Below, piece after piece: positions 2,568-6,718 of a stretch of 15,493 nucleotides of DNA. The stretch spans positions 1 to 15,493 of the forward strand of contig JAATGK010000244.1 in NCBI GenBank assembly GCA_015654715.1. Reading direction: 5' to 3'. The position numbers were made by a program, and so were the translations under genes. Position 1 is the first letter of the stretch; each line of letters begins with the position of its first letter. Origin of the DNA: Alphaproteobacteria bacterium (GTDB taxonomy: Bacteria > Pseudomonadota > Alphaproteobacteria > Micropepsales > Micropepsaceae). The notes beneath the pieces are model-generated. The model did not search any database and had not been told where the DNA came from. It worked only from the letters and a program-made list of their open reading frames with translations.

Positions 2568-3301
2568 GGCTTGCTGCTCTTGTCGCTGATGTTTGTTTCG
2601 ATGAGCTTGTCTAGCGCTTGCCGGTCCTTGGCGCCATAGGCCTTCTTGGCATGTTTGGCCGCTTTCGGCTTGGACGGCCGGATAGGCTCGGCTTCGGCCG
2701 GTTTTTGGACCGGTTTGGCCTCGGGTTTGGGCGACGCCGTGTCGTTATCTTTGAGCTTTTCGGCGATCGGATCGGCCGAATCATCGGAATCTGTCCGGGT
2801 TTCCTTGGGCACGCGGACATCCTGGTTGGGAATCAGCGAGGAAACGATCTCGGCCGACGCATGAATCTCTGGGTACAACCTTGCGTTGACAAGCCAGCCG
2901 GGAGTGGTGTTCGGCGCATACATGACGAACACGAGGTAGGCGATGCCGACGATGGCGACGCCCCGAAGGATGCCGAAACCGGTTCCGAGCACGCTATCGA
3001 GCGTGCCGACTTGCGTTTTTTTGACGTTCTGGGAGATGCGCGAGGACGCAAACTGCAGCGGGATCAAGACAATCAGGAACACCAGGACATAGCCGGCGGC
3101 TTGGCCCAGCCACTGCGGCTTCATCATGTCCTGCATCCACCACGCCACCCACGGGCCGAAATAAAGCGTGGCATAAGCGGCGGCAATCCAGCCGAACACG
3201 GCCAGCGACTCGGATACGAGTCCGCGATAGGTCGCGTAGGCGGCCGATGCGATGACAATCAGCACCACCACCAAATCGAGGAATTGGAACGCAAAGCTCA
3301 T
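2564..3301 (-). CDS. cvpA: CvpA family inner-membrane protein
   Basis: A 245-residue membrane protein. Four hydrophobic segments are visible at about residues 7-25, 30-52, 67-86 and 103-128. A soluble tail of about 110 residues follows, rich in Pro, Lys, Glu and Asp (about 165-230), and is probably disordered and cytoplasmic. CvpA was named for colicin V production in E. coli, where it also precedes purF. Its general role is linked to envelope homeostasis and is not well defined. The family core is about 160 residues, so the charged tail is an extension of a kind seen in other Alphaproteobacteria. It ends in a 4-bp overlap with purF and starts 47 bases after the radA stop, so it belongs in the radA-cvpA-purF-SDR operon. 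Confidence 0.92.
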   Translation of the reverse strand: MSFAFQFLDLVVVLIVIASAAYATYRGLVSESLAVFGWIAAAYATLYFGPWVAWWMQDMMKPQWLGQAAGYVLVFLIVLIPLQFASSRISQNVKKTQVGTLDSVLGTGFGILRGVAIVGIAYLVFVMYAPNTTPGWLVNARLYPEIHASAEIVSSLIPNQDVRVPKETRTDSDDSADPIAEKLKDNDTASPKPEAKPVQKPAEAEPIRPSKPKAAKHAKKAYGAKDRQALDKLIETNISDKSSKP

Positions 3302-3348: not shown

Positions 3349-4722
3349 TTACTTGTACGCCGCCCCGGCGCTGGCAACGGCGATCAGATCGCCGACGTCC
3401 TTGACCGGCCTTAGCGTCAGCCCCGGCACGTCGGCTTTGGTATCCTTAGGGACAACGGCCGCCGTAAAGCCCAGTTTCGCGGCTTCTTTGAGGCGGAGTT
3501 CGCCTTGCGGCGTCGGGCGGATGTCGCCGGTCAGGCTGATCTCGCCGAAAAACACCGTGTCGCGCGGCAACGGCGTCCCGGCGAAAGAGGAAATCAATGC
3601 CGCCGCTGCGGCAAGATCGGCCGCCGGTTCGCCGACCTTCAGGCCGCCCGCCACATTCAGATAGACGTCCTGAGCGCTGACCCCGACGCCGCCGCGCGAA
3701 TCGAGCACGGCAAGAATCATCGCCAGCCGCCCGGCATCCCAGCCGACCACCGCGCGCCGCGGCGTGCCGTAACTGGGCTGAGCGACGAGGGCCTGCACTT
3801 CCACCAGCAAAGGCCGCGTGCCTTCGATACCGGCGAACACCGCCGTGCCGGGCGCCACCGAATTGCGGTCGCCGAGAAACAGCGCCGAGGGATTGGCCAC
3901 TTCGGCGAGGCCCTTGCCGGTCATTTCGAAGACGCCGATTTCGTCGGTCGGGCCGAAACGGTTTTTGACGGCGCGCAAAATACGAAATTGATGGCCGCGC
4001 TCGCCTTCGAAATAGAGCACCGCATCGACCAAGTGTTCCACTGCCTTAGGTCCGGCAATCTGGCCGTCCTTGGTGACATGACCGACCAGGATCAGCCCGG
4101 CGCCGGAGGCTTTGGCGTAGCGCACCAGATCGAGCGAGGCGGTGCGGACCTGCGCGATGGTGCCGGGAGCCGCTTCCAGCGTGCCGGTCCACAAGGTCTG
4201 GATCGAGTCGATGGCGATCATGCCGGGCGGCTCGCGCTGCTCCAGCGTCGCCAGAATGTCCTCCACGCAGGTCGCCGAACCGAGCGCCACCGGGCTCTCC
4301 GACAAGCCCATGCGGGTGGCGCGCGAGCGCACCTGCGGCATCGACTCTTCGCCCGAGATATAGACGGCGGTGCCGCCCGAGCGCGCGTAAGCCGCCAGCG
4401 CCTGCAGGATGATGGTCGACTTGCCGACGCCGGGATCGCCGCCGACAAGCAGCGCACAGCCGGGCACCATGCCGCCGCCGCAGACACGGTCGAATTCGTT
4501 GATGCCGGTGACCCGGCGCGCCGGCTCGACGTCTTCGGTTTTCAAATCTTCGAGGGTGAAAGCCCGGCCGCGCTGGCGCTTTTGCGCCGTGGACCCCAGC
4601 GGCGGCGGCGCCGCTTCCTCGGTGATGGTGTTCCAGCCGCCGCACGCATCGCACTTGCCCGACCATTTGTTATGGACGGCACCGCAGGACTGACAAACGA
4701 AAGACGCGGATGTTTTGGCCAA
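3349..4722 (-). CDS. radA: DNA repair protein RadA (Sms)
   Basis: A 457-residue RecA-like ATPase that promotes branch migration and processing of recombination intermediates. The N-terminal zinc finger has Cys10, Cys13, Cys24 and Cys27. Walker A is GGDPGVGKST at 94-103 and Walker B IAIDSIQT at about 169-176. The RadA-specific KNRFG motif is at 253-257. The C-terminal Lon-protease-like domain covers about 300-457. Length and domain order are standard for the family. The start is TTG at 4722-4720. An in-frame TGA lies directly before it and the protein begins M-A-K-T with the zinc finger close behind, as in other RadA proteins, so no longer or clearly better start exists. That TGA is the stop of the upstream DUF559 gene. 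The ribosome-binding site lies in the adjoining palindromic repeat. Confidence 0.97.
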   Translation of the reverse strand: MAKTSASFVCQSCGAVHNKWSGKCDACGGWNTITEEAAPPPLGSTAQKRQRGRAFTLEDLKTEDVEPARRVTGINEFDRVCGGGMVPGCALLVGGDPGVGKSTIILQALAAYARSGGTAVYISGEESMPQVRSRATRMGLSESPVALGSATCVEDILATLEQREPPGMIAIDSIQTLWTGTLEAAPGTIAQVRTASLDLVRYAKASGAGLILVGHVTKDGQIAGPKAVEHLVDAVLYFEGERGHQFRILRAVKNRFGPTDEIGVFEMTGKGLAEVANPSALFLGDRNSVAPGTAVFAGIEGTRPLLVEVQALVAQPSYGTPRRAVVGWDAGRLAMILAVLDSRGGVGVSAQDVYLNVAGGLKVGEPAADLAAAAALISSFAGTPLPRDTVFFGEISLTGDIRPTPQGELRLKEAAKLGFTAAVVPKDTKADVPGLTLRPVKDVGDLIAVASAGAAYK

Positions 4723-4740
4723 TCAACCACCCTCCCCTTG
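4720..4740 (-). promoter_or_regulatory. Ribosome-binding site of radA, located inside a palindromic repeat
   Basis: On the minus strand the outer end of repeat copy A reads AAGGGGAGGG. It is followed by 7 bases (TGGTTGA) and the TTG start of radA. The purine run matches the anti-Shine-Dalgarno sequence well and the spacing is right. The same bases form one arm of the first repeat hairpin, so folding of the repeat RNA could hide or expose the site. That regulatory idea is an inference. Confidence 0.6.
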
Positions 4741-5163
4741 AGGGAGGGTCGGAAAATCGTTGCGAAGCGGCGATTTTACGGGGAGGGGTATGTCGTGCCG
4801 TCCGCAATGATGCACGATTCCCTCCACGATCCGTACCGGTTCTTTGAACACGTCAGCGTTGGGAAAACGCAGAACCCGGTAGCCGCGTTCTACCAGCCAG
4901 CGCGTTCGGTTTTCGTCATAATCGACGGCCTTTTTCGCACCGTGTTGATCGCCATCCAATTCGACGACCAACTTCGCCGACGGGCAGAAGAAGTCGACGA
5001 TGTATGGTCCGATGGGCTGTTGGCGGCGGAATTTCAACCCTGCGACCTGCCGGGAACGCAGAGCCGCCCACAATCGCCGTTCGGCATCGGTCATGTCTTC
5101 GCGCAAATGCGCCGCGAAGCCCGTCTTCAGATTCTGCCGCCGGAGCCTGCTCGGAAACGTCAC
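4723..5163 (-). CDS. DUF559-family endonuclease domain protein
   Basis: A 146-residue protein of the DUF559 family, which has a restriction-endonuclease-like (Vsr-like) fold. Family features are LRxxMTDAERRLWAALRSRQ (about 20-39), LKFRRQQPIGPYIVDFFC (43-60) with Asp57, VVELDGDQH (66-74) with Glu68, Asp70 and His74, and ERGYRVLRFPNADV (92-105). The acidic residues are likely metal ligands. The start is GTG at 5163-5161, which is also the end of repeat copy B. A purine run (GGGAAGGGG) in that repeat lies 6 bases upstream. Residues 123-146 (from HDIPLP to QGEGG) are encoded entirely by repeat copy A, and the stop abuts the TTG of radA. The tail is therefore probably not part of the catalytic domain. 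No methylase or helicase partner is near. The biological role of the family is unknown. ATG at 5094 is a possible later start but would cut conserved residues. Confidence 0.85.
   Translation of the reverse strand: MTFPSRLRRQNLKTGFAAHLREDMTDAERRLWAALRSRQVAGLKFRRQQPIGPYIVDFFCPSAKLVVELDGDQHGAKKAVDYDENRTRWLVERGYRVLRFPNADVFKEPVRIVEGIVHHCGRHDIPLPVKSPLRNDFPTLPQGEGG
4730..4797 (+). repeat. Palindromic repeat, copy A (plus orientation)
   Basis: A 68-bp unit. It opens with CCCTCCCCTTGAGGGAGGG, a hairpin with a 7-bp GC-rich stem. A second stem follows (AAAATCG paired with CGATTTT, loop in between), and the unit closes with GGGGAGGGGTATGTCGTG. Its inner end points towards the DUF559 gene and it encodes the last 24 codons of that gene. 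Its outer end carries the ribosome-binding site of radA. It forms an inverted pair with copy B. Confidence 0.9.
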
Positions 5164-5221
5164 GACATACCCCTTCCCGAAATTCGCTGACGCAAATTTC
5201 GACCCTCCCTCAAGGGGAGGG
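5161..5221 (-). repeat. Palindromic repeat, copy B (minus orientation)
   Basis: A 61-bp unit with the same layout as copy A on the opposite strand: outer stem, second stem (CGAAATTTGC against GCGAATTTCG), then GGGAAGGGGTATGTCGTG. The final GTG of the unit is the start codon of the DUF559 gene and the preceding purine run is its ribosome-binding site. Copies A and B face each other and enclose only that gene. Confidence 0.9.
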
Positions 5222-5274
5222 TGAGATTTTTCGTCAACGAGACGGTTTCAGCCATTGCAGAGCCAATTCGTTTA

Positions 5275-5334
5275 CCCTCCCCTTGAGGGAGGGTCGGAAA
5301 CGCCGGAGGCGTTTACGGGGAGGGGTATGTCGTG
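5275..5334 (+). repeat. Palindromic repeat, copy C (solo, plus orientation)
   Basis: A 60-bp unit. The outer stem is identical to copy A. The second stem is AAACGCC paired with GGCGTTT around a GGA loop, and the end is GGGGAGGGGTATGTCGTG. It lies 53 bp beyond copy B, back to back with it, and about 56 bp before the start of the small membrane-protein gene. It has no inverted partner close by. Confidence 0.9.
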
Positions 5335-5390
5335 TTTTGCGCGAACCATGAATCGACCATAGCATAGCCAGGGAACAAAAGGGAAACGGC

Positions 5391-6353: not shown

Positions 6354-6543
6354 GAAAACGCGTTCTCATCCCACCCGCTTTACGTTCGCCGCGCCGAACT
6401 GGCCGTCGCCGCGGTGCGCCACCCGGCAATCGCAATGCCTATAAGCATGGCAAATACACCCGCGAGCGCCGCACGCTTTACGCCGACATCCGCACCTATG
6501 TCCACCAAACCCGTGCGCTGACGGAAGCGCTTGCACTTTCTTA
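6350..6543 (+). CDS. Basic GNRNAxKHG-motif small protein, module 1; 3' end overrun by a repeat
   Basis: The supported part is about 64 residues, very rich in Arg and Lys, with RRRGAPPGNRNAYKHGKYTRERR at about residues 18-40. The GNRNAxKHG motif is shared with the protein starting at 13972. Similar motifs occur at the N-termini of many small phage and bacterial proteins, some annotated as terminase small subunits, but function is unknown here. AAGG about 8 bases before the ATG is a plausible ribosome-binding site. The frame has no stop where the gene should end. It runs into repeat copy D1 at 6544 and stays open to 8320, antisense to mlaF and mlaE, which I do not believe is coding. The native stop was probably lost when the repeat inserted, so the true product may carry a repeat-encoded tail. 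The given end marks the repeat boundary, not a stop codon. Confidence 0.5.
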
Positions 6544-6613
6544 CCCTCCCCTTGAGGGAGGGTCGAAATCTGCCAAGCGTAGCGGAGCAGATTTCGGAGA
6601 GGGGTACGTCGTG
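6544..6613 (+). repeat. Palindromic repeat, copy D1 (plus orientation)
   Basis: A 70-bp unit. It has the same first hairpin as copy A, a second stem CGAAATCTGC paired with GCAGATTTCG, and the end GAGAGGGGTACGTCGTG. It faces copy D2 across a 30-bp spacer. Confidence 0.9.
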
Positions 6614-6643
6614 ACGCCGGGCGTCGTGCCTCAATGCAGAGAA

Positions 6644-6705
6644 CACGACAAACCCCTCCCCGAAAAATCCCTGCGTGATTTTTCGACCCTCCTTCAAGGG
6701 GAGGG
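6644..6705 (-). repeat. Palindromic repeat, copy D2 (minus orientation)
   Basis: A 62-bp unit on the minus strand. The first hairpin has one change in its loop-side arm, and the second stem is CGAAAAATC paired with GATTTTTCG. The inner end is CACGACA on the plus strand. It ends 13 bp before the mlaF stop codon. With D1 it forms a twin inverted pair. Confidence 0.9.
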
Positions 6706-6718
6706 TTGGGGTTCATCC

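Follow-up and report, generated by a model that had tools for sequence, protein, structure and literature searches.

The DUF559 nuclease gene studied here and the palindromic repeats that enclose it probably belong to a widespread family of minimal mobile elements that carry a lone Vsr-like nuclease. Sequence comparison brought out the association of such genes with inverted palindromic ends, the co-variation of enzyme and ends, the lineage-specific presence of the elements, derivatives with internal deletions, and gene-free copies that match the gene-bearing element of the same genome. By position, co-variation, copy distribution and sites empty in close relatives, a family of small nucleases annotated without a function is tied to one class of palindromic repeat. 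Bacterial genomes commonly contain intergenic palindromic repeats, and for many of these we know of no enzyme that moves them; DUF559 cassettes suggest a likely source for one such class.

The radA locus and its repeat copies

The window is the whole stretch of DNA that was analysed (15,493 nt of contig JAATGK010000244.1, alphaproteobacterial assembly GCA_015654715.1). The following features were located in it.

3349–4722, minus strand: radA, start altered by the insertion; the name is that of the first-pass annotation and the Pfam domains agree with it
4719–4721, no strand: CCA at the left junction, possible 3 bp target duplication
4722–5348, no strand: inserted block, 627 bp, made up of copy A, the DUF559 gene, copy B, a 50 bp spacer and copy C
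4723–5163, minus strand: DUF559 nuclease gene, 146 amino acids, GTG start, PD-(D/E)XK nuclease of predicted Vsr/EDxHD-type fold
4729–4797, plus strand: element copy A, with terminal hairpin, second hairpin and tag GGGGAGGGG; encodes the C-terminal end of the DUF559 protein
5161–5223, minus strand: element copy B, inverted with respect to A; the gene takes its purine run and GTG start codon from it
5274–5334, plus strand: element copy C, the third in the inserted block, at its far end
5346–5348, no strand: second copy of the junction CCA
6543–6613, plus strand: element copy D, half of the gene-free inverted pair D–E
6642–6706, minus strand: element copy E, other half of the pair D–E

The first-pass annotation, made from the letters of the window, had described two copies of one repeat facing each other around a single DUF559 gene. 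This arrangement was confirmed by repeat search and by Pfam (PF04480, 127.5 bits against a cut-off of 20.6), with copies A and B proving a few bases wider than annotated. Read from the outside towards the gene, both copies consist of a hairpin (ACCCTCCCC-TTGA-GGGAGGGT), a second hairpin and a tag, GGGGAGGGGTATGTCGTG in A and GGGAAGGGGTATGTCGTG in B. It was also correctly noted that B ends in the GTG of the gene and supplies its purine run and that the last codons of the gene lie in A; the purine run in the tag of B is, from its sequence, a plausible Shine–Dalgarno element for the DUF559 gene. Single-strand DNA folding gave z-scores of −5.0, −5.0 and −4.7 for A, B and C, respectively, and the 21 nt head, with up to two mismatches, was matched 25 times in the genome of the window but not once by the reversed pattern. 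These head matches and folding scores indicate that the repeat family is more than a product of chance. No Rfam family scored above its gathering threshold in the window.

The genome assembly from which the window derives (3.13 Mb, 518 contigs, 74% complete) holds six inverted pairs whose heads are 118–143 bp apart, and three DUF559 genes above 120 bits together with one weak match. The other two strong DUF559 genes have palindromic flanks as well, with sequences that differ from those in the window; the inverted-flank score is strong for one of them (L003, 60) and weak for the other (L001, 31). At G000:C312:127–617 (L010) a pair of the window family was observed around approximately 340 bp containing an unrelated small open reading frame, hydrophobic by eye, which can start at the GTG that ends the element tag, as the DUF559 gene of the window does. 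Since this pair encloses a different small reading frame, other genes can sit between such ends.

The start of radA was read in 12 of 29 congener loci. In nine of these the block is absent and the radA start is undisturbed, and the other three are too diverged upstream to tell; the junction was derived from G391, G388, G412 and the six further congeners. The closest, G388, has 89% identity in radA. At the empty site in the nine congeners GCCATG (ATGGC on the radA strand) continues into a conserved upstream stretch, whereas the window has 627 bp inserted between ...TTGGCCA and TGAATCG. On the evidence of these alignments the block at 4722–5348 is a lineage-specific insertion that splits the radA start, and the gene is not one inherited vertically at this locus without the repeats, a possibility that the first-pass annotation had raised against its own proposal. 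The unit of A, gene and B that had been described as a cassette of about 490 bp is real, but the inserted block is larger and includes C.

The insertion broke the ATG start of radA; in its place TTG follows the DUF559 stop without a gap (TGATTG). At window positions 4720–4725 the stop TGA abuts this TTG, so the two genes may be translationally coupled; after the insertion radA may depend on a new promoter. No target-site duplication had been obvious from the window by itself. Comparison with the empty sites revealed the three bases CCA at both junctions, which is compatible with a target duplication but too short for proof, and because of this repeat the placement of the block is uncertain by 0–3 bases leftwards. 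Neither junction falls on a hairpin base (7 nt are extra on the left, and on the right 14 nt follow C), and the last step may therefore be more complex than simple transposition; the block also has three ends rather than two. In G414 and G408, pairs of the window family and of another family lie slightly upstream of radA.

DUF559 genes, their flanks and the encoded enzyme

Flanks were compared by locally aligning the 350 bp to the left of each gene with the reverse-complemented 350 bp to its right, and control windows of the same geometry were shifted along the same loci. The 190 alphaproteobacterial genomes contained 84 DUF559 matches of at least 90 bits, including those in the window's own genome; 83 were examined (one at a contig edge was omitted) and two of these had less than 200 bp on one side, leaving 81 in the flank test. 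Matches below 90 bits and 27 further loci inspected without a control are outside these counts. Inverted flanks with a score of at least 36 were found at 60 of the 81 genes compared with 3 of 757 shifted windows, and with a score of at least 40 at 52 of the 81 genes and none of the 757 windows. The cross-phylum set comprised the best 80 of 338 related loci from named genomes, of which six were dropped and one is common to both sets. Here a score of at least 36 was reached by 61 of 74 genes (4 of 677 windows) and a score of at least 50 by 34 of 74 (2 of 677 windows). A lack of enrichment of DUF559 genes beside such repeats would have refuted the proposal of the first-pass annotation; both sets show a strong enrichment.

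The cross-phylum members with scores of 39 to 54 include genes from Gemmataceae (L171), Chloroflexi (L190, L234), Nitrospirae (L220), Bacteroidetes (L188), Deltaproteobacteria (L195, L210), WOR-3 (L231) and Pontiellaceae (L211). Below the threshold of 36 were 21 of the 81 alphaproteobacterial and 13 of the 74 cross-phylum loci, the latter including Elusimicrobia (L244), Stenotrophomonas (L223), Pseudomonas (L184), Stutzerimonas (L178), Methylobacterium (L199, L246) and L209, which is one of the two fully flanked WOR-3 loci. Of the 83 alphaproteobacterial loci, 82 have a hairpin with a pyrimidine or purine arm on one side or more (99 of 757 control windows) and 55 have one on both sides (4 of 757); all 22 low-scoring alphaproteobacterial loci have such a hairpin on at least one side. 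Genes for Vsr, which has the same fold, were used as a second control: from 38 matches 30 loci were taken, six at contig edges were dropped, and inverted flanks with a score of at least 32 were found at none of the remaining 24. Among inverted neighbour pairs 150–1800 bp apart at the 83 DUF559 loci, 29 enclose a DUF559 domain and three something else, a count biased by the choice of the loci for DUF559. Judged from these alignments, inverted palindromic flanks around DUF559 genes are a general arrangement.

Ends of unrelated sequence follow a common layout. The hairpin is rich in C/T on its 5′ arm and in G/A on its 3′ arm; after it come a short linker or a further hairpin and then a GGGTGAGGGG-like purine tag, which is similar to the 3′ arm of the first hairpin. 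Among the 52 elements with a score of at least 40, 50 have a stem of at least six pairs (median 10), and the hairpin is outer in 38 of these, inner in seven and central in five. The tags GTAG/CGTC were absent within approximately six bases of 48 of the 50 scored hairpins and present near the other two.

Eight residues (E28, R47, Q48, D57, E68, D70, G71 and R99) are invariant in 78 sequences, and H74 and D83 are near-invariant in DUF559 sequences. A profile match to the homing endonuclease I-Bth0305I (PDB entry 3r3p) was obtained with an E value of 7.6e-5, and Foldseek and VIA-align gave matches to 3hrl, 3r3p and Vsr. According to the structure model, the DUF559 protein has the fold of I-Bth0305I and Vsr; the window protein contains one Pfam domain above the cut-off, spanning residues 15–119, and the ends of its model are of low confidence. 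For one Caulobacter member, VsrA, an excerpt of PMC12907096 links the protein to DNA damage when the cytosine methylase is missing and predicts a role in mismatch repair.

Co-variation was assessed with the 49 of 83 loci that had sufficient flank, contained no stop and scored at least 40. Between genomes, the identity of the proteins correlated with the similarity of the ends at r = 0.33, a value reached by none of 2000 label permutations, same-genome pairs being left out and relatedness otherwise being ignored. The median end similarity was 0.29 for same-genome paralogues (34 pairs) and 0.28 for different genomes (1142 pairs). Paralogue ends are no more alike, which means that the repeat is not just whichever one is local to the genome. 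At the sequence level, DUF559 enzyme and end sequences co-vary.

Gene-free pairs, copy numbers and empty sites

Inverted doublets occur in the genome of the window, in its congeners and in G014, and single copies occur too. The gene-free copies in G014 have a left-type and a right-type end, which are unequal, around a short variable middle, and match the ends of the DUF559 cassettes; the two DUF559 genes of this genome have different end families, and gene-free copies of both types are present. In both G014 and G148 the gene-free copies share both ends with the gene-bearing element of the same genome. Five short pairs in G148 were compared with the cassette. The alignment, which includes the ends, extends for 221 bp in one pair and for 112 bp at 80% identity in another, and approximately 150 and 40 bp, respectively, of these two reach past the end into the gene region; the remaining three have an end and a few bases in common with the cassette and a different middle. 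The 221 bp pair gave a PF04480 match of 33.5 bits (G148:C6:2722–2853), and a fragment in G014 at 1222202–1222366 is a remnant of a DUF559 gene in a short pair. Because of these remnants, some short pairs can be derived from full cassettes. From their sequences, gene-free pairs look like MITEs and the mobile unit looks like the left-end/right-end pair rather than the single palindrome. In three short pairs of G148 (L260–L262) a common middle was seen that by eye resembles a piece of an insertion-sequence transposase gene, which suggests that the elements can capture foreign DNA.

Copies were counted over the 190 genomes with a degenerate pattern of the end type described above, the raw counts including the genes' own ends. 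Of the 47 genomes with a full DUF559 gene, 43 had at least two pattern copies, compared with 12 of the 143 without (Fisher 6e-27, kinship being ignored). After subtraction of two copies per DUF559 gene, at least two remained in 40 of 47 versus 12 of 143 genomes and at least ten in 28 of 47 versus 6 of 143. The highest count was 279 (G056, where the reversed control gave 25). The first-pass annotation had named relatives with the repeats but without a DUF559 gene as a difficulty for its proposal; such genomes exist, as a minority. Those with at least five copies are G003, G005, G011, G016, G139, G144, G157 and G178, and gene loss or incomplete assemblies could account for some of them. Conversely, four DUF559-bearing genomes (G072, G089, G145 and G186) are without the pattern. 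Weak PF04480 matches of 23–26 bits were present in three of the 12 copy-bearing genomes without the gene (G005, G016 and G144), and their reading as gene remnants was dropped: the match in G016 lies beside a Vsr match and that in G144 in a frame of 1619 residues, so these three matches are no good evidence for lost genes.

The Y1 transposase domain (Y1_Tnp) occurred in 15 of the 55 genomes that bear the element and in 30 of the 135 that do not (odds ratio 1.3, p = 0.46). When the 145 genomes free of Y1 are taken by themselves, the element was present in 30 of 32 with DUF559 and in 10 of 113 without. Vsr genes were found in 15 of 55 element-bearing genomes and 16 of 135 others (p = 0.016, kinship again being ignored), a weak association from which it follows that part of the presence/absence links reflects genome type.

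Further sites were compared between species. At the site of pair D–E, 30 bp lie between the matched flanks in G391 compared with 216 bp in the window. In G388 and G412 a different palindromic family, CTGTCATCCCCGGC .. GGGACCCAGGT, inverted, was observed at the place corresponding to window 6526–6717 (L383, L385), and these two genomes were rejected as empty-site cases. A cassette of the window family lies between two genes in G408; the genes abut in G004, where the site is empty, and in G397 a gene-free pair, decayed at one end, takes its place. No clear target repeat was found at the G408 site. The cassette of G014 is absent from G147, with flanks of 83–84% identity. Comparison of a gene-free pair of G014 with G147 was dropped as an empty-site case, G147 having a different repeat there, of the type CGTCATCCCTGCGAACGCAGGGATCC (L343, ~3030–3190).

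At an intergenic site in the genus of G232, full-length matches spanning the cassette were obtained in six species (G232, G366, G334, G333, G377 and G346), by alignment only except for the query. This site (L143) was read in 11 of 30 loci in addition to the query, with families assigned by eye. Among these 11, a gene-free pair of the same family was present in one (G343), pairs of other families in five (G250, G370, G349, G355 and G351), a solo hairpin in four (G353, G358, G357 and G337) and several elements in one (G359). G232 and G250 differ at the shared site despite flanks that are 97% and 91% identical. Across L274–L288 one and the same site carries varied families, clusters or solo hairpins depending on the species, in the manner of a preferred target or of a terminator to which elements are drawn.

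The fabI–ycjD–sapF region of Escherichia coli has a match in 5375 genomes, of which 3362 retain 80% or more of its length. No clean empty site for the DUF559 gene ycjD was obtained among the strains opened, since in a strain whose match stops after fabI other genes follow and another strain has a truncated ycjD. Degraded repeats of the same type were observed 3′ of ycjD in strain K-12 (L139:1208–1250 and 1396–1423), and a near-identical copy of the ycjD-side repeat lies between tkt and ypfG in strain 300444 (L299). At the tkt copy most of the 25 records listed cover 96% of the region in two pieces, with a stretch of similar length, and this case was set aside. Phage records gave three matches and plasmid records 45, all with less than 60% identity to the query.

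Proposed movement of the element and alternatives

A complete element would consist of a left end, the DUF559 gene and a right end, together roughly half a kilobase, and the short gene-free left-end/right-end pairs would be its non-autonomous derivatives, comparable to MITEs or REPINs. We infer that the DUF559 nuclease is the mover of the element. It would recognise its own ends when these are extruded as hairpins or cruciforms and would nick or cut there, starting the copying of the pair to new sites, which would probably be completed by host replication and repair. In the window the element would have landed in the start codon of radA, and as the purine tag is a plausible ribosome-binding site the insertion would bring its own translation start. 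Two versions can be distinguished, a transposase-like role for the whole unit, which is preferred, and homing into existing pairs. If the nuclease is the mover, a transposition enzyme may consist of a single PD-(D/E)XK domain without a partner transposase; to our knowledge, no such enzyme has been described. The identified ends, the empty sites and the matching gene-free copies make the role of mover directly testable. More tentatively, we lean towards the existence of an unnamed mobile superfamily in which a lone Vsr/EDxHD-type nuclease of approximately 110–150 residues acts as the transposase of hairpin-ended elements. It would extend over Proteobacteria with single examples in Planctomycetes, Chloroflexi, Nitrospirae, Bacteroidetes and others, and would be the source of many C/T-rich palindromic intergenic repeats of the CCCTCTCCC..GGGTGAGGGG type, perhaps including the low-copy ones around E. 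coli ycjD.

In the homing version DUF559 would be a selfish nuclease that invades existing pairs; these would be moved by something else and the gene would be copied in during repair. Apart from 3hrl, the nearest relative of known structure is the catalytic domain of I-Bth0305I, and a gene-free pair stands at the site of a full cassette in another species (G397/G408 and G343/G232), both of which speak for homing. We nevertheless consider it rather unlikely, given the DUF559 gene remnants in short pairs of G148 and G014, the rarity of copies where DUF559 is absent and the co-variation of enzyme and ends; the intact radA starts in congeners, moreover, point to the arrival of the cassette where no pair stood. 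Movement of the hairpins by a RAYT or another transposase, with DUF559 as a passenger, is improbable. It would account for the resemblance to REPIN/RAYT arrangements (PMC3116915, in excerpt), and the genome of the window has one weak Y1_Tnp match (48.7 bits, C476), but Y1, the transposase family that was tested, is about as frequent in genomes with and without the element and the GTAG/CGTC tags are near just two hairpins. A RAYT as the general mover was rejected, since over the 190 genomes the presence of Y1 does not track the element.

That the ends form a general, integron-like cassette for small genes, of which DUF559 is merely the commonest cargo, would agree with the pair on C312 and its unrelated reading frame usable from the tag GTG. 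The preponderance of DUF559 among enclosed genes, biased as this count is, and the co-variation of ends with DUF559 sequence make it very improbable. Almost no credence is given to DUF559 genes being host repair genes with terminators or chance neighbours as flanking hairpins: the Vsr fold and the Vsr-like Caulobacter member (PMC12907096, in excerpt) would suit this, but Vsr genes are without such flanks, and the flanks of DUF559 genes match in inverted orientation, recur gene-free, and come and go between close species. An explanation by terminators alone was rejected on the basis of the shifted-window control, the Vsr control and the co-variation of enzyme and ends.

With a transposase-like role of the DUF559 unit as the preferred reading, its likeness to known systems can be specified. 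An excerpt of PMC3116915 describes REPIN/RAYT systems as short palindromes in inverted doublets and a gene flanked by inverted repeats. The DUF559 elements share with these the inverted palindrome doublets, the several copies per genome and the gene between inverted repeats, but the flanked gene encodes a PF04480 PD-(D/E)XK nuclease of the Vsr/EDxHD type without a Y1 domain (PF01797), and the ends consist of a hairpin with an arm-copying purine tag and mostly no GTAG/CGTC. As both enzyme and end tag differ, the DUF559 element is not a member of the REP/RAYT family. The first-pass annotation had suggested a REP/RAYT-like arrangement with a different enzyme, which flanks, empty sites and copy distribution support; as to the REP-like detail, the inverted doublets stand, the REP-type tag does not, and the unit is the pair of left and right ends. 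MITEs and palindrome-associated elements (PATE-like, IS200/IS605), among them PATE, an ends-only element in PMC7290912, resemble the gene-free copies, which keep both ends of a larger element whose gene is lost; the parent element here, however, codes for a DUF559 nuclease and no known transposase.

One DUF559 gene is assigned to the EDxHD homing endonuclease family in an excerpt of PMC9403480. With I-Bth0305I the DUF559 protein shares the predicted fold and a detectable sequence relation of the catalytic domain, but according to Pfam it has no added DNA-binding domain, and its genes are mostly flanked by their own palindromic ends. The modelled fold also agrees with that of Vsr, from whose genes those of DUF559 differ by their palindromic flanks. 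In a search of open-licence papers no report of DUF559 with such repeats was found. RIME of rhizobia and Bru-RS of Brucella are named in papers as repeats of Alphaproteobacteria. Both have a similar arrangement; that they are identical with the DUF559 end family is no more than a suggestion.
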